Shown: positions 5,944-12,608 of the stretch, piece after piece | How the letters are laid out: each line of letters starts with the position of its first letter | Position numbering within the stretch: the first letter of the stretch is position 1 | Assembly: GCF_001056295.1 (NCBI RefSeq) | Contig: NZ_JVMD01000015.1 | Span: forward strand, 124,001-188,000 | Direction of reading: 5' to 3' | Length of the DNA: 64,000 nt | Origin: Corynebacterium halotolerans | Lineage (GTDB): Bacteria; Actinomycetota; Actinomycetes; Mycobacteriales; Mycobacteriaceae | The notes under the pieces: model-generated | The model's input: only the letters and a program-made list of their open reading frames with translations | Databases searched by the model: none | Told to the model about the DNA's origin: nothing | Made by a program: the position numbers and the translations under genes

Positions 5944-6195
5944 TTAGCGGCTGGTGAACGGCAGGAGGGCCATCTCGCGGGCGTTCTTGACCGCGGTGGC
6001 GACCTGGCGCTGCTGCTGGGGGGTCAGGCCGGTCACGCGACGGGAGCGGATCTTGCCCCGGTCGGAGATGAACTGACGCAGCAGGTTGATGTCCTTGTAA
6101 TCGACCTTCTCAACGCCGGCGGCCTTGAGCGGGTTCTTCTTCGGGCGGCGGGACTGCTCCATCCGCGCCTTCTTGTTGCCGTGGTTGCGCTTCAT
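5944..6195 (-). CDS. rpsR: 30S ribosomal protein S18 (zinc-independent paralogue)
   Basis: S18, 83 residues, of the small-subunit platform near the mRNA exit. The sequence starts [20 protein letters not shown] and contains the family core [19 protein letters not shown] and [20 protein letters not shown] (about residues 31-70). It has no cysteines, unlike zinc-ribbon (C+) S18 forms. It is the last gene of the leftward rpmB-rpmG-rpsN-rpsR unit, 15 bases after rpsN. In mycobacteria the equivalent C- set is induced by zinc starvation through Zur. I saw no clear Zur box here. Confidence 0.96.
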
Positions 6196-6210
6196 GTGAG
6201 TGTCTCCCTC

Positions 6211-6516
6211 TTACCAGCTGGACTTACGGACGCCCGGGAGCTCGCCACGGTGGGCCATCTCACGGACGCGGACGCGGGACAGACCGAACTTGCGCAGGTA
6301 ACCACGCGGGCGGCCGTCGGCGGCGTCACGGTTGCGGACGCGGACCGGGGAGGCGTCGCGCGGCTGACGGTTCAGCTCGTACTGCGCCTCGGCACGATCC
6401 TCGTCGGAGGTGTTCGGGGACTTGATGATGGCCTTGAGCTCAGCGCGACGCTCGGCGTAGCGGGCGACGATCTCCTTGCGCTGCTCGTTCTTGGCGATCT
6501 TGGACTTCTTGGCCAT
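6211..6516 (-). CDS. rpsN: 30S ribosomal protein S14 (long, zinc-independent form)
   Basis: S14, 101 residues, in the 30S head. This is the long C- type, with no CxxC pairs and the C-terminal signature [21 protein letters not shown] (last 25 residues, conserved Gly-Leu-x-Lys-x-Ser end). It sits 3 bases downstream of rpmG and 15 bases upstream of rpsR, so translation is probably coupled. Short zinc-binding S14 forms are about 61 residues and carry four Cys, so this is clearly the other class. Confidence 0.96.
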
Positions 6517-6519
6517 GAG

Positions 6520-6684
6520 TTAGCGCTCCTCGCGGAATTCGACGTGCTTGCGGGCGATCGGATCGTACTTCTTCAGCGTGATGCGATCCGGGTTGTTCCG
6601 CTTGTTCTTCCGCGTGACGTACGTGTAACCCGTACCCGCGGTCGACTTCAGCTTGATGATGGGACGAATGTCATTACGTGCCAT
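6520..6684 (-). CDS. rpmG: 50S ribosomal protein L33 (zinc-independent)
   Basis: A 54-residue L33 read from ATG 6684: [19 protein letters not shown], then [20 protein letters not shown], ending [11 protein letters not shown]. It lacks the four cysteines of C+ L33. The gene directly abuts rpmB (stop 6685) and ends 3 bases before rpsN. It is too short for many gene callers but matches the family end to end. Confidence 0.95.
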
Positions 6685-6921
6685 TTAGATCTTCTCCCCA
6701 CGGGCGCGGATCTGGGCCACGACGGCCTCGATCCCGAGCTTGTCGATGGTCTTGAGACCCTTCGGGGACACCGTCAGGGTGATGGTGCGCCCCTCGGAGG
6801 CGAGGTAGAACTTCTTGCGCTGCACGTTGGGGTTCCAACGGCGTGAGGTGCGCCGGTGCGAGTGGGAGACGGTCTTGCCGAAGCTCGGCTTCCGTCCCGT
6901 GACCTGGCAAATCGCCGACAT
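6685..6921 (-). CDS. rpmB: 50S ribosomal protein L28
   Basis: L28, 78 residues: [20 protein letters not shown] at the start, then [14 protein letters not shown] and the [14 protein letters not shown] core. It has a single Cys at residue 5 and no CxxC pairs, so it is the C- type. It is first in the leftward ribosomal unit. The start is ATG 6921; longer in-frame extensions are unlike the family. The preceding 514-base gap must hold its promoter. A TAGGGT hexamer reading leftward at 7149-7144 is a candidate -10. Confidence 0.95.
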
Positions 6922-7435
6922 GGGCTTTCCTTTGCTTCCTGGCCGCCCATCAGCCGGCTGCGAGGCGCCGCACCGGTCCAGAATCGCCGCTTCCCCTCCT
7001 GCTCGTGGTGCCGGCGGATCTGCCGGGCGGTACGTGCGTGAACACTGCTCAGGTGCTCGGAGGGGGAGTGCTCTTCTGTTCCGGGGCGCCGTCGTGCCAG
7101 GGCACTGGGCGTCAAACGAATAAACAGACAACAGCGAGGGTCTACCCTACAGGCCGCCCCCGCCGGATTCCTAATCGCCTGGGAGCACGCCCATTTGCCG
7201 CGGGTGCGGCGCCGGCCCCGGCCCACGCGTTTTTCCTTATGGGCGGCCGCGGGTGTAGGGTGCTAGAGGTTCATCGCCGATTCAGCGGCGATGTTGCACG
7301 CATACGAACCCAACTCGGGCACGATCCGGGCTCCGGCGCGATCCACGTTCCGCGGCGAATCATACGTCGTGAAGCGAAAATCCGCCCACGCCGCCCGGAA
7401 GCGACCCGTAGTTCAATCCTGAGGGAATCGAAAGC
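6922..7435. promoter_or_regulatory. Divergent promoter/leader region between rpmB and rpmE2
   Basis: This 514-base gap contains no credible gene. Two TAGGGT hexamers, leftward at 7149-7144 and rightward at 7256-7261, resemble corynebacterial -10 elements and would give leaders of about 215 and 170 bases. A perfect 8-bp hairpin, CATCGCCG / CGGCGATG (7272-7279 with 7286-7293), lies near the 5-prime end of the rpmE2 leader. A GCTTNACGACG motif copy is at 7365-7375. Confidence 0.5.
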
Positions 7436-7705
7436 ATGAAGAAGGACATCCACCCCGACTACCACCCGGTGGTCTTCCAGGATGCGGGCACGGGCACTCA
7501 GTTCCTGACCCGTTCCACCGCCACTTCTGGCCGCACCGTCCAGTGGGAGGACGGCAATGAGTACCCGCTCATCGTCGTCGACGTGACCTCCGAGTCGCAC
7601 CCGTTCTGGACCGGCGCCCAGCGTGTCATGGACACCGCCGGCCGCGTCGAGAAGTTCCAGCGCCGTTACGGCAACCGCGTTCCGCGCCGTTCCAAGAAGA
7701 ACTAA
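7436..7705 (+). CDS. rpmE2: 50S ribosomal protein L31, type B
   Basis: Type B L31, 89 residues, of the large subunit at the inter-subunit bridge. The start is [20 protein letters not shown], with the type B features [22 protein letters not shown] and SHPFWTG (around residues 24-60). It has no zinc-binding CxxC, as expected for type B. It is preceded by a leader of about 170 bases with a hairpin and lies 18 bases upstream of rpmF, with an AAGGAGGG site between them. Confidence 0.96.
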
Positions 7706-7723
7706 GAAGGAGGGTAAACCCAA

Positions 7724-7897
7724 ATGGCAGTTCCCAAGCGCCGCATGTCGCGGGCCAATACCCGCGCCCGCCGTTCCCAGTGGAAGGCCGACAATGTCGC
7801 CCTCCAGGAGGTCAAGATCGACGGCCAGGTGCACATGGTGCCCCGCCGCCTGGTCAAGGCCGCCCAGCTCGGCCTGATCGACGTCAAACAGTTCTAG
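7724..7897 (+). CDS. rpmF: 50S ribosomal protein L32
   Basis: A 57-residue protein beginning [20 protein letters not shown], the universal L32 start, and ending with [15 protein letters not shown] and a short tail. It has none of the four C-terminal cysteines of zinc-binding L32. An AAGGAGGG Shine-Dalgarno sequence is 8-12 bases before ATG 7724. It forms an operon with rpmE2 and is followed within 25 bases by a strong terminator. Confidence 0.95.
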
Positions 7898-7921: not shown

Positions 7922-7960
7922 AAGACCCGCTCCCCGCACCGGGGGAGCGGGTCTTCGGTC
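7922..7960 (+). terminator. Terminator of rpmE2-rpmF
   Basis: AAGACCCGCTCCCC (7922-7935) pairs with GGGGAGCGGGTCTT (about 7942-7955), a 14-bp stem followed by a T-containing tail (CGGTCTTTCG). It separates the ribosomal unit from mprA. Confidence 0.85.
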
Positions 7961-8015
7961 TTTCGGGGGCTTCCCGAGCATGTCCGGCACATGTCCCGGG
8001 CCACTTCCGGCGTTG

Positions 8016-8033
8016 CTCTCAGCGCCGGCTCAG
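8016..8033 (+). promoter_or_regulatory. Direct repeat resembling an MprA box, upstream of mprA
   Basis: CTCTCAG (8016-8022), four bases, then GGCTCAG (8027-8033): two half-sites one helical turn (11 bases) apart, 22 bases before mprA. Mycobacterial MprA binds a pair of loosely conserved 8-bp direct repeats. The same arrangement recurs upstream of pepD (10464-10481). Confidence 0.6.
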
Positions 8034-8055
8034 ACGTTCACGGCACAATGGGCGC

Positions 8056-8748
8056 ATGAAGATTTTGGTGGTTGACGACGACCAGGCCGTGCGCGAATCG
8101 CTGCGGAGGTCGCTGACGTTCAACGGGTACACGGTGGATCTGGCCGAGGATGGCGAGCAGGCGCTGGCGAAGATCTCGTCGGACCGGCCCGACCTGGCGA
8201 TCCTCGACGTGATGATGCCCAAGCTCGACGGCCTCGACGTGTGCCGCCGCCTGCGCAGCGAGGGCGATGACCTGCCGGTGCTGATGCTCACCGCCCGCGA
8301 CTCCGTGTCCGAGCGCGTGTCCGGCCTCGACGCGGGCGCCGACGATTACCTGCCCAAGCCCTTCGCGCTGGAGGAGCTGCTGGCCCGCGTGCGTTCCCTG
8401 CTGCGCCGCGCCGCGCTGGAGCCCACCACGACGCAGGATCCGGTCGCCCTGAAGTTCGAGGACCTCAGCCTCGACCCCGACACCCGCGAGGTGTTCCGCG
8501 GCGACCGCGCCATCAGCCTGACCCGCACGGAGTTCGCGCTGCTCGAGCTGCTGATGAACAACCCGCGGCGCGTCCTGTCGCGCACCTCCATCCTCGAGGA
8601 CGTGTGGGGCTACGACTTCCCGACCTCCGGCAATGCTCTGGAGGTGTACATCGGGTACCTGCGCCGCAAGACGGAGGCGGAGGGCGAGTCGCGTCTGATC
8701 CACACCGTCCGCGGCGTCGGCTACGTCCTGCGGGAGACCGCGCCGTGA
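8056..8748 (+). CDS. mprA: Two-component response regulator MprA
   Basis: OmpR/PhoB-type regulator of 230 residues. The receiver domain (1-118) has the acidic pocket VDDD (7-9), phospho-acceptor Asp51 in LAILDVMMP, Thr79 and Lys101. The winged-helix DNA-binding domain (about 130-228) ends VRGVGYVLR. In mycobacteria MprA with MprB answers envelope stress and controls pepD and sigma factors. Here too the kinase and pepD follow directly. ATG 8056 starts exactly at MKILVVDDD; the longer upstream frame is not family-like. The paired repeats at 8016-8033 suggest autoregulation. Confidence 0.93.
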
Positions 8749-10394
8749 TTCTGCGCCGTTCCCGCGGCGCCCGGGATGCCGCGCCCGCGGATCCGCTTCA
8801 CGACGCCGACCGCGCCCCCGAGGGCGCCCACGCGTCGCCCACGCCGGGCGCCGGGGAGACGGCGGAGGCCGGGGCGGAATCGTCGTGGCCGAGCTTTTCG
8901 TGGCCGGGCGGCAGGAACGGCAGGAACGGCAAGCCGGCCAAGGGCGGGAAGAAGGGCGACGCGTCGGCCGCCATCGACGGCGAGGAATTCGACCGCGCCT
9001 TCAACTCGGGTTTCGGCCACCGGATGTCGCTGCGCTGGCGGCTGACGCTGCTCACCGCGCTGATCGTGGCCGCGTCGGTCGGTCTGATGACGCTCGCGGC
9101 GTTCGTCACCGTGCAGGCGACCCTGTACCGCGAGGTCGACGAGAACCTGAAGACGCAGGCGACGCAGCTGCTCAATTCGCCCTACGCGTCGGAGTTCGCC
9201 ATCGAGCCCATCGTGACCGCGGATTCGCTGAAGATCCTCAACCCGGACCTCGACGCGATGTTCTTCGCCCGCGGCAGCGTCACCGGCCGCGGCGGCACCA
9301 TCAACATCGGCGGCCCGGAGTGGGCGGTGATCAGCGGCAACCGCACCGAGTCGCTGCGCACCGACGAGTTCAGCAACAAGCGGATCTACGCGATCCACGA
9401 CCCGTCGGGTGCGACGCTGGTGCTGGCCAACAGCCTCGAGTCCACCAACACCGTGCTGCGGTCGCTGGGCGGGGTGCTGTTCGTGATCTCCGCGATCGGC
9501 GTGTTCTTCGCCGCGGCGGCGGGCATCACCGTGGCCACGGCCGGCCTGCGCCAGGTGGCGCGGCTGCGGCGGGCGGCCGATCGGATCGCCGAGACAGATG
9601 AGCTGCGGCCCATCCCCGTGCACGGGCAGGATGAGCTGGCGCGGTTCACGCGGTCGTTCAACGAGATGCTCGCGGCGCTGCAGGCGTCGCGGATCAAACA
9701 GGCGGAGCTCGTCGCCGACGCCGGACACGAGTTGAAGACGCCGCTGACGTCGCTGCGCACGAACGTGGAGCTGCTGATGATGGCGTCGCGTTCCGGCGCG
9801 GCGATTTCGGCGAAGGACCGCGAGGAACTGGAGTCGGACGTCATCGCCCAGATCGAGGAGCTGTCGACCCTCGTCGGCGACCTCGTCGACCTCGCCCGCG
9901 AGGATGGCCCGCAGCAGGTGATCGAGGAGGTCGACGTCGTGGACGTCATCGAGACTTCCCTCGAGCGCGTCGAGAGGCGCCGCCCGGACGTGACGTTCAT
10001 TCTGAAGCTCAACCCGTGGTTCCTGTTCGGCGATCCCGCGGCGCTGGGGCGCGCGGTGCTCAACCTCATGGACAACGCCGCGAAGTGGTCCCCGGAGGAC
10101 GGCACGGTGCGCATCGAGCTGCGCCCGGTCGGCGACGATCTGGTCGAGCTCACCGTCGCGGATTCCGGCCCCGGCATCCCCGAGGACAAGCGCGCCAAGG
10201 TGTTCGACCGCTTCTACCGGGCCATCCAGTCCCGGTCGATGCCGGGTTCCGGTCTGGGCCTGGCCATCGTCAAGCAGGTCATCGCCCGCCACGGCGGCAC
10301 CATCGCGGTGGAGGATTCCGATGACGGCGGCGCCCTGATGCGCGTCCGGCTGCCCGGATCGGCCACCCGAAATGGGGAGCCGGCCGTCGGGTGA
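8745..10394 (+). CDS. mprB: Sensor histidine kinase MprB
   Basis: A 549-residue kinase whose GTG start overlaps the mprA stop by four bases (GTGA). TM1 is near 101-123 and TM2 near 242-268, with an extracytoplasmic sensor of about 120 residues between them. HAMP follows, to about 317. The phospho-acceptor is His328 in [15 protein letters not shown], then the N box LMDNAAKWS and G boxes VADSGPGIP and GSGLGLAIV. MprB acts with MprA and, in mycobacteria, is restrained by DnaK. Odd feature: residues 1-95 form a long Gly/Lys/Ala-rich cytoplasmic extension. A start near residue 94 (ATG) would give a more usual length. Confidence 0.9.
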
Positions 10395-10463
10395 GGGCCA
10401 TAGGCTCCCATTGGAAAAAGTTGTCCACCGATGTGGTCAACTTCATCGACGCCACGCAGTAGG

Positions 10464-10481
10464 CTCTCAGTGTCCTGTCAG
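10464..10481 (+). promoter_or_regulatory. Direct repeat resembling an MprA box, upstream of pepD
   Basis: CTCTCAG (10464-10470), TGTC, then CTGTCAG (10475-10481), with 11-base periodicity, 12 bases before pepD ATG 10493. It matches the layout at 8016-8033, so mprA and pepD probably share control by phosphorylated MprA (inference). Confidence 0.6.
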
Positions 10482-10492
10482 ATCGAAAAGGC

Positions 10493-11953
10493 ATGGTTGT
10501 CCGCATGACTAACGACCAATCCCGATGGAGCAATGGGGCCGGCGACAACGGCCGCCCCGGGGGTTTTGAACGGCACGCGTCCGCATCGGAGTCCCACGGC
10601 GGCGACCCGGGGTGGGGCGCCCAGCCCACCGCGGGATTCGGGGCGCAGGGAGCGGGCGGCACCGGCGCCGGCCCGTACGGCGCCGGCGGAACCGGGGGCC
10701 ACGGAGCGGGCCAGCGCTACGGAGCCGGCCATGACTCTTCCCCGCACGACTCCTCCCCGTACGGCTCTCCGGCGGGCGGACCCGGGTCCGGCGCCGACTC
10801 CTTCGGGCAGGCCCCGGCCACCGGTGACGGCGGGCCGGGCGACGACGGCGGGAACGGCCGCGCGAAGAAGGCCAAGAGCATCGGGGCCCTCGGCATCGCG
10901 GCCCTCATGCTCGGTTCGGCCGCGGTCGGCGGCGCCACCGCGGCGATCATCACCAGCGGGGCCGTGGGCTCCCCGGGTGGATCGAACGTGACCAACGCGC
11001 TGGATCGGCCCGGGAACGCCCGCTCCGAGCCGGCGCCGAAGGGCTCGATCGAGGCCGCGGCGCAGGCCGCACTCGACAGCGTCGTGTCCATCCAGGTGGC
11101 CACGGAACGCGGCACGGCGTCCGGGTCGGGCTCGGTGCTGTCCTCCGATGGTCTCGTGCTGACCAACCAGCACGTCGTCGCCGGCGCCGAGGAGCCGGGC
11201 GCCCGCATGACCGTGGTGCTCAACAACGGCACCACGCACGCCGCCGAGTACGTGGCCGGCCACCGCCCCAGCGACATCGCGGTGATCCGCGTCAAGGACG
11301 TCAACGATCTGCGCCCGATCACCCTCGGCGACTCGTCGAAGGTGTCCGTCGGCCAGCAAGTCGTCGCCGTCGGTTCGCCCCTGGGCCTGGCGTCGACGGT
11401 GACCTCCGGCATCGTCTCCGCGATCAACCGCCCGGTGGGCGTGTCGTCGGCGGGCGGCGAGTCCACGGTTCTCGACGCCATCCAGACCGACGCGGCCATC
11501 AACCCCGGCAATTCGGGCGGTGCCCTGGTGGACCTGGACGGCAATCTCATCGGCGTGCCCAGCGTCATCGCCTCGAACACCGGCGGCGAGAAGGCCGGCA
11601 ACATCGGCCTCGGTTTCGCCATCCCGGTGAACCAGGCCCGCCGCATCGCGGACGCGCTCATCAAGGACGGTTCGGTGAAGATGCCGGCCATCAACGCCTC
11701 GATCGACACCCGCTCCCAGCTGCCCGGGGCGTTGGTCGGAGACGTCACGCCCGGGGGTGCGGCGGAGCGAGGGGGCTTGCGGCCCGGGGATTTGATCGTG
11801 AAAGTGGATGATCGCAGGGTCGACTCCGGTGTCGCCCTGATCGCCGCGATCCGGTCGCGAGCGGTCGGGGATACTGTCAAACTGACCGTGACGGACGAAG
11901 ACGGGCGCGGAGAGCGCACGGTCGACGTCACGTTGGAGGCGGCCCCGGAGTGA
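10493..11953 (+). CDS. pepD: HtrA-like serine protease PepD
   Basis: Membrane-anchored HtrA/DegP-type protease of 486 residues. The cytoplasmic N-terminus (1-128) is a disordered Gly/Ser/Pro-rich region. One membrane helix follows at about 128-158, then a trypsin-like domain with His227 (TNQHVVAG), Asp261 (PSDIAVIRV) and Ser341 (NPGNSGGAL), and a PDZ domain (about 395-480). Such enzymes degrade misfolded envelope proteins, and in mycobacteria PepD is an MprAB target and modulates SigE signalling. ATG 10493 and ATG 10505 are both possible, with the same frame. Confidence 0.93.
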   Translation: MVVRMTNDQSRWSNGAGDNGRPGGFERHASASESHGGDPGWGAQPTAGFGAQGAGGTGAGPYGAGGTGGHGAGQRYGAGHDSSPHDSSPYGSPAGGPGSGADSFGQAPATGDGGPGDDGGNGRAKKAKSIGALGIAALMLGSAAVGGATAAIITSGAVGSPGGSNVTNALDRPGNARSEPAPKGSIEAAAQAALDSVVSIQVATERGTASGSGSVLSSDGLVLTNQHVVAGAEEPGARMTVVLNNGTTHAAEYVAGHRPSDIAVIRVKDVNDLRPITLGDSSKVSVGQQVVAVGSPLGLASTVTSGIVSAINRPVGVSSAGGESTVLDAIQTDAAINPGNSGGALVDLDGNLIGVPSVIASNTGGEKAGNIGLGFAIPVNQARRIADALIKDGSVKMPAINASIDTRSQLPGALVGDVTPGGAAERGGLRPGDLIVKVDDRRVDSGVALIAAIRSRAVGDTVKLTVTDEDGRGERTVDVTLEAAPE

Positions 11954-12026: not shown

Positions 12027-12608
12027 ATGGGTGATTTGGACGGCGCCGGACGCTTCGACGGTGAGGGCCTGGAATCCGATCTCGAGCCGGATGACGACAA
12101 TCTCGAGGCCATCGAGCGGGAGATCGCGGCGGCGGCGCAGACGCGCCGTGCGCTGGTGGTGCTGGTCGGCGATCGCGCGTCGGATGACGAGCGCACCGGC
12201 GAGTTGATGGTGGAGCTGCTCGAGGAGGACGGTTACCGCGTCGACGCGGTGGTCACGTCCCCGTCGGAGAAGCGCGAGGTGCGCATGGCGCTGGAGACCG
12301 CCGTCGTCGGCGGCGCGGATCTGGTGGTCACGGTCGGTGGCGTGGGCGTTGGCCCGCGCGACCTGGTCCCGGAGGCGACGCGCAAGGTCCTGGATCGCCG
12401 TCTCGGCGGCATCGAGCAGGCGCTGCGCGCGTCGGGCCTCGCCGCCGGTTCGACGGAGGCGGGCCTGTCCCGCGGGTTGGCCGGCGTGTCCGGTTCGACC
12501 GTGGTGGTCAACCTCGCCGACAGCCGCGCCGCGGTGCGCGACGGCATGGCCACGTTGGGCCCGCTGGTGTCGCACGTCATCGAAGATCTGGGCCGGTGGC
12601 GGGTGTGA
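12027..12608 (+). CDS. MogA/MoaB-type molybdopterin-binding protein (atypical motif)
   Basis: A 193-residue MogA/MoaB fold protein with an extra acidic N-terminus of about 45 residues. It lies where mycobacteria have moaB2, after pepD. Family enzymes bind or adenylate molybdopterin through TxGGTG and RDxTPE. Here the stretch reads VTVGGVGVGPRDLVPEA, so the first Gly-rich loop has lost its Thr residues (GGVG) and the TPE has become VPE, although the Asp remains. Reduced or altered catalysis is possible. The stop overlaps the next GTG start by three bases. Confidence 0.85.
   Translation: MGDLDGAGRFDGEGLESDLEPDDDNLEAIEREIAAAAQTRRALVVLVGDRASDDERTGELMVELLEEDGYRVDAVVTSPSEKREVRMALETAVVGGADLVVTVGGVGVGPRDLVPEATRKVLDRRLGGIEQALRASGLAAGSTEAGLSRGLAGVSGSTVVVNLADSRAAVRDGMATLGPLVSHVIEDLGRWRV

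Follow-up and report, generated by a model that had tools for sequence, protein, structure and literature searches.

Described MprAB systems and the genes of the locus

In mycobacteria, MprA recognizes an 8-bp direct repeat. Both M. tuberculosis and C. glutamicum have the gene order mprA-mprB-pepD-moa (PMC6975037). Mycobacterial MprAB is also known to control sigB and sigE (PMC10027907). The corresponding system of C. glutamicum is MprAB (CgtSR2). Gel shifts demonstrated that its MprA binds the mprA promoter and the htrA (pepD) promoter, the latter only when phosphorylated (PMC12113857), and RNA-seq located a promoter directly upstream of htrA within the operon (PMC6975037). The mprA promoter was found to be positively autoregulated, and the activity of the htrA promoter was stated to be MprAB-dependent; htrA expression was higher in an mprAB mutant, vancomycin lowered the mprA and mprB messages, and overexpression of mprA lowered several targets (PMC12113857). 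The same study proposed TKTTAAGAAM, the only corynebacterial MprA motif that we found in print in a survey for which subscription papers were mostly outside the scope (PMC12113857).

The window, that is the whole 64-kb stretch of DNA analyzed here, belongs to a genome whose closest named relative is Corynebacterium xerosis NBRC 16721 (97% for MprA). Its mprA gene (8056..8748, + strand) encodes an OmpR-type response regulator of 230 amino acids (Pfam Response_reg and Trans_reg_C) and is followed on the same strand by mprB (8745..10394, GTG start as read), coding for a sensor kinase with HAMP, HisKA and HATPase domains (Pfam), and by the htrA-like pepD (10505..11953, start corrected as described below), coding for a membrane-anchored trypsin-like protease with a PDZ domain (Pfam Trypsin_2 and PDZ). 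A moaB-like gene for a molybdopterin-binding protein (12027..12608, + strand; Pfam MoCF_biosynth) completes the order mprA-mprB-pepD-moa, after which an MscL frame lies on the opposite strand. No MprA model was among the best 25 NCBIfam families for the regulator, all of which scored below their cut-offs; the name mprA was assigned because the protein shares 74-82% identity with its matches in other genera and because of the gene order. The region before mprA (5944-7897) contains ribosomal protein genes for S18, S14 and type B L31 (NCBIfam) and further frames that resemble L28 and L32 by eye; these genes are possibly zinc-independent paralogues.

The repeat pair and its putative promoter module

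Two direct repeats are present on the + strand, namely, CTCTCAGCGCCGGCTCAG at 8016-8033 upstream of mprA and CTCTCAGTGTCCTGTCAG at 10464-10481 upstream of pepD. The half-sites are TCTCAG (8017-8022) and GCTCAG (8028-8033) in the predicted mprA operator, and TCTCAG (10465-10470) and TGTCAG (10476-10481) in the predicted pepD operator. Their period is 11 bp in both boxes, and an earlier note on this DNA had given the positions and the identical 11-base spacing exactly. The pattern CTCTCAGN4SNSTCAG has two matches in the window compared with 0.01 expected by chance, and none of 100 shuffled windows contained two. The genome-wide search that the note had proposed was carried out with the slightly wider pattern CTSTCAGN4SNSTCAG, for which the mprA and pepD boxes are the sole two matches in the 3,154,822 bases of the genome; the reversed control gave none. 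A possible third half-site, ACGCAG (10454..10459, + strand), precedes the pepD box at a distance of 11 bp, and the same ACGCAG occurs in the related loci L093 and L129.

Both boxes are followed after 10 nt by a -10-like hexamer with a presumed promoter function. These hexamers are CACAAT (8044..8049, + strand), 6 nt before the ATG of mprA, and CATGGT (10492..10497, + strand), 7 nt before ATG 10505. The alternative pepD start, ATG 10493, overlaps CATGGT, and the closest relative, L093, has CAAGGT instead and hence lacks the equivalent ATG. Since ATG 10493 lies within the -10 and is absent from L093, whereas ATG 10505 is kept in four relatives (L093, L129, L095 and L096), the predicted pepD start is ATG 10505, which replaces ATG 10493. 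The repeats had been reported to lie 12-22 bases from the start codons; the 22 nt at mprA stand, but the pepD figure was based on ATG 10493, and the distance from ATG 10505 is 23 nt. The two promoters therefore have near-equal geometry and share the layout box, 10 nt, CANNNT, 6-7 nt, ATG. The -10 hexamers fall within the 5-8 nt before the start codon by which leaderless promoters were defined, and leaderless mprA and pepD messages are predicted. The longer module TCTCAG-N5-TCTCAG-N10-CANNNT contains both boxes, each with one mismatch in the window.

PhoB-type activators bind head-to-tail half-sites with an 11-bp period that end 10 nt before the -10. At the pho-box promoters of PhoB, 7-bp direct repeats separated by 4-bp gaps replace the -35 at about 10 nt before the -10; regulator, signal and half-site differ from those of the window boxes, and the likeness is one of mechanism, not of membership. 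A C-terminal stretch of 18 residues, which we take to be the DNA-reading helix, is nearly invariant among 134 aligned MprA sequences. Given this stretch, the PhoB-like layout, and the MprA binding and internal htrA promoter of C. glutamicum, it is likely that both boxes are MprA operators through which mprAB and an internal pepD promoter are activated. Two DNA-binding domains of (phosphorylated) MprA would be arranged head to tail with the 11-bp spacing of the half-sites, at a site that ends 10 nt upstream of the -10 and occupies the place of the -35. There, MprA would take over the role of the -35 contact in the recruitment of RNA polymerase, driving a leaderless mprAB message in positive autoregulation. 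From the internal promoter, it would also drive a leaderless pepD message, resulting in more envelope protease under stress. MprA binding in the window species, activation and the leaderless starts are what we infer from these data. The suggestion that pepD has its own promoter inside the operon is supported by the -10-like hexamer after its box and by the internal htrA promoter of C. glutamicum (PMC6975037). That system would resemble the locus studied here also in the binding of MprA at the mprA and htrA promoters, and differs from it in the published motif, a wide regulon and a partly repressing role (PMC12113857).

Such a role may also be considered here: MprA could repress one or both promoters from the same boxes, for example by covering the pepD promoter in unstressed cells, which is the main rival reading but one that we regard as unlikely. 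It would agree with the elevated htrA expression in the C. glutamicum mprAB mutant and with the decrease of several bound genes on mprA overexpression (PMC12113857), as well as with a TAGGCT hexamer (10460-10465) that could serve as a -10 with the box downstream. The lowering of the mprA and mprB messages by vancomycin in C. glutamicum (PMC12113857) likewise counts against activation. However, the box keeps a constant N10 distance to the -10 and lies where a -35 would be, which is an activator position, and positive autoregulation of mprA and MprAB-dependent htrA promoter activity have been reported for C. glutamicum (PMC12113857). TAGGCT was rejected as the pepD -10, as it is not kept in L129.

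Conservation outside Corynebacterium and possible further targets

A whole-genome search for the exact module, covering 151 genomes of the family, identified 125 matches, distributed over 85 genomes, and none for the reversed control. Of these matches, 48 are at mprA, 39 or 40 nt before its start, and 74 are at the pepD position, on the same strand and 2.1-3.1 kb downstream of the mprA start, an assignment made by distance and not by confirming pepD singly. The other three lie elsewhere, one of them, in G137, preceding a leaderless-looking long frame. The module without mismatch was found in none of the 11 Corynebacterium genomes of this sample, the window's own included.

A sample of 38 loci from 30 other genera, 36 with a usable pepD region, gave a similar pair of sites. 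Repeats scoring at least 10 of 12 were detected upstream of mprA in 26 of the 38 loci (0.4% of shuffled sequences), the best-scoring place beginning between -41 and -39 in about 33 loci, and upstream of pepD in 31 of the 36. CANNNT follows at N10 in 24 of these 31 pepD sites and at N13 in one, and a -10-like hexamer is found at the mprA place in 36 of the 38 loci. Most pepD genes of the other genera are not leaderless, which counts against the proposed reading: a -10 stands immediately ahead of an in-frame start at 10 of 36 loci.

Among 16 of 80 loci that were picked by name and inspected at up to one mismatch, 13 have the repeat upstream of mprA, including five mycobacteria, two Nocardioides, Goodfellowiella and a Pseudonocardiales MAG, and of the 12 in which pepD was matched, 8 have it upstream of that gene. 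In the two Nocardioides it is located 60-63 nt before the first matched MprA residue, the start not being settled. Within this set, the repeat is absent at mprA from C. pacaense, Dietzia cinnamea and Pseudonocardia kunmingensis, and at pepD from Gordonia aichiensis, D. cinnamea, C. pacaense and the Pseudonocardiales MAG. Named mycobacteria, a Nocardia and Rhodococcoides fascians possess it at both genes; together with most of the 38 loci from other genera, they argue for the MprA circuit on mprA and pepD that the earlier note had suggested. The mycobacterial system has the same gene order (PMC6975037) and TCTCAG-N5-TCTCAG upstream of mprA in all five named loci and, at up to one mismatch, of pepD in all five. 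In contrast, its pepD start is further from the -10 than in the window, and its mprAB and pepD are also SigE-dependent (PMC10027907 and PMC6975037), whereas the window promoters have no SigE-like site.

Profiles built from other genera recover both sites. A profile of 33 mprA sites assigns 27.8 to position 8016, compared with 9.4 for the next place in the window and 14.8 for the best of 15 Markov controls, and gives the pepD site only 6.3, which is below the Markov controls. A profile of 31 pepD sites, used without a Markov control, assigns 24.7 to position 10464, 20.5 to 8016 and 7.8 to the next place. Each predicted site is supported by data that exclude the window genome, which in the case of pepD come solely from the profile of pepD sites. 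By all comparative tests, the repeats are a real pair of putative operators.

These data also bear on who binds the boxes. Direct-repeat sites are common to OmpR-type regulators and more regulator-like matches exist in the genome (14 candidates at first inspection), so that another regulator of this type might be the main binder. We consider this very unlikely, as 122 of the 125 exact module matches are at the mprAB-pepD locus, as expected of a self-regulating system, and MprA of C. glutamicum binds the mprA and htrA promoters (PMC12113857). Slightly less probable still is that the repeat forms part of an alternative sigma factor promoter and is not a regulator operator, although its spacing to the -10 is fixed and mycobacterial mprAB are also under SigE (PMC10027907). 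An 11-bp repeat with 2-4 in-phase copies better fits tandem protein domains, and the SigE-like motif GGAACN15-19SGTT is absent near the mprA and pepD boxes, with 6 matches in the window against 4.2 expected. A SigE-type promoter was thus rejected, GGAAC and SGTT being found at neither promoter. The probability that the likeness of the two repeats is due to chance is negligible: the mprA box is missing in most corynebacteria sampled, but only 0.01 matches are expected in the window, there are none elsewhere in the genome and none for the reversed control in 151 genomes, the other-genera profiles score high, and conservation already contradicts it.

Possible further targets were collected from the exact and one-mismatch searches, the latter of which gave one reversed-control match (G147). 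Outside the mprA and main pepD positions, 20 places were taken, with G136:C4:310083 left out. In four loci of other genera (L305, L306, L317 and L318), the repeat with one mismatch allowed precedes a SigB gene (NCBIfam SigB, above cut-off); L311 resembles them, its frame being unconfirmed. In the four sigB loci, the box is intact, the -10 part is imperfect, and GGAAC, presumably a SigE-like -35, follows shortly after. In L302, L303 and L304, also of other genera, a one-mismatch repeat with a shared GGCAGAGT end is located 5' of the gene for a DsbA-like thioredoxin-fold protein (Pfam), a possible further MprA target. The nearest SigB (L322) and DsbA-like (L324) matches of the window genome have no repeat scoring at least 9 of 12 at locus positions 700-1500. 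At two mismatches, the full module has one added site in the window genome, in L251 around 1500-1535, between frames that by eye resemble ctaC and an asnB-like amidotransferase. This site was rejected as a target: its -10 part fits poorly, and sites of such quality may arise by chance.

The mprA and pepD sites within Corynebacterium

At E 1e-70, 96 other genomes of the genus have an MprA match (97 of 121 including G000). After removal of G074, G108 and G115, 93 regions were used, which together with G191 and G174 make 95 Corynebacterium loci; 94 have 120 nt upstream of mprA, and 84, with pepD within 1 kb of mprB, are usable at pepD. Sites were anchored on the -10 and the start codon, because choosing the longest CAG chain misplaced the operator in some loci.

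The orthologous upstream regions, which the earlier note had named as a test, give a divided answer. At pepD, the core is kept: CAG is found exactly 10 nt before the leaderless -10 in 51 of 84 loci (47 of 69 after removal of near-duplicates), other offsets from 4 to 16 having 0-5 loci each, and a second [CT]AG lies 11 bp further upstream in 33 of 84. At mprA, CAG is at N10 from the -10 in only 4 of 95 loci (L093, L112, L118 and L129), two of which are those most closely related to this C. xerosis-like genome, and the repeat scores at least 10 in only 3 of 94; a -10-like hexamer is present at the mprA place in 85 of 95. In a comparison of all 64 triplets, based on 61 non-redundant pepD regions of the remainder of the genus, CAG had the highest rank for recurrence both at 11 bp (107 pairs, against an average of 17.6 at other distances) and at 22 bp (51). 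The same test in 73 non-redundant mprA regions of this group gave a weak signal (CTG, 9 versus 2.0; CAG, 7 versus 1.6). Counted along the longest in-phase chain, CAG occurs at pepD in 3-4 copies in 29 of 84 loci, in two copies in 51 and in one in 4, some chains not being promoter-proximal. L095 and L096 have TCTTAA-N5-GCTTAA where the window has the mprA box, which looks like drift. A reversed repeat, CTG-N8-CTG, is located about 67-68 nt before mprA in L089, L091, L092, L120, L121, L122 and L124; in all of these except L124, pepD is 1.5-1.8 kb from mprB.

Even with one mismatch allowed, the published motif TKTTAAGAAM does not occur in the window regions 7926-8055 and 10395-10504. Across Corynebacterium, its frequency modestly exceeds that in shuffled sequences: it was found in 8 of 94 mprA regions, against a shuffled mean of 2.2 (largest of 20 shuffles, 6), and in 7 of 84 pepD regions, against 2.6 (largest, 7). 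The 11-bp CAG repeat appears to fit corynebacterial pepD promoters better than this motif, the C. glutamicum promoters not being singled out by name; this is a lead, not a refutation. Tentatively, the MprA circuit may exist in two forms in Corynebacterium, an ancestral one with matching operators in the C. xerosis group and another in most other species, in which feedback was rewired and output kept, the real operator being the CAG core and not TKTTAAGAAM. If so, most other corynebacteria would have lost or moved the mprA operator and kept the pepD operator, often lengthened to 3-4 in-phase half-sites, and the CAG core serving as operator in corynebacteria would have an 11-bp period and stop 10 nt before the -10.

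An MprA circuit acting on itself and on a protease, both of which it probably controls, is largely of a known kind; the analysis adds a corrected pepD start and a sharper module. For MprA, which regulates the response to envelope stress in mycobacteria and corynebacteria, it gives a precise putative operator with fixed spacing, the strict form of which is almost confined to the mprAB-pepD locus, and this pattern allows the sole corynebacterial MprA motif found in print to be tested, as well as the supposed loss of the self-control site in most corynebacteria. Such a loss, if true, would change the switching of the stress response.
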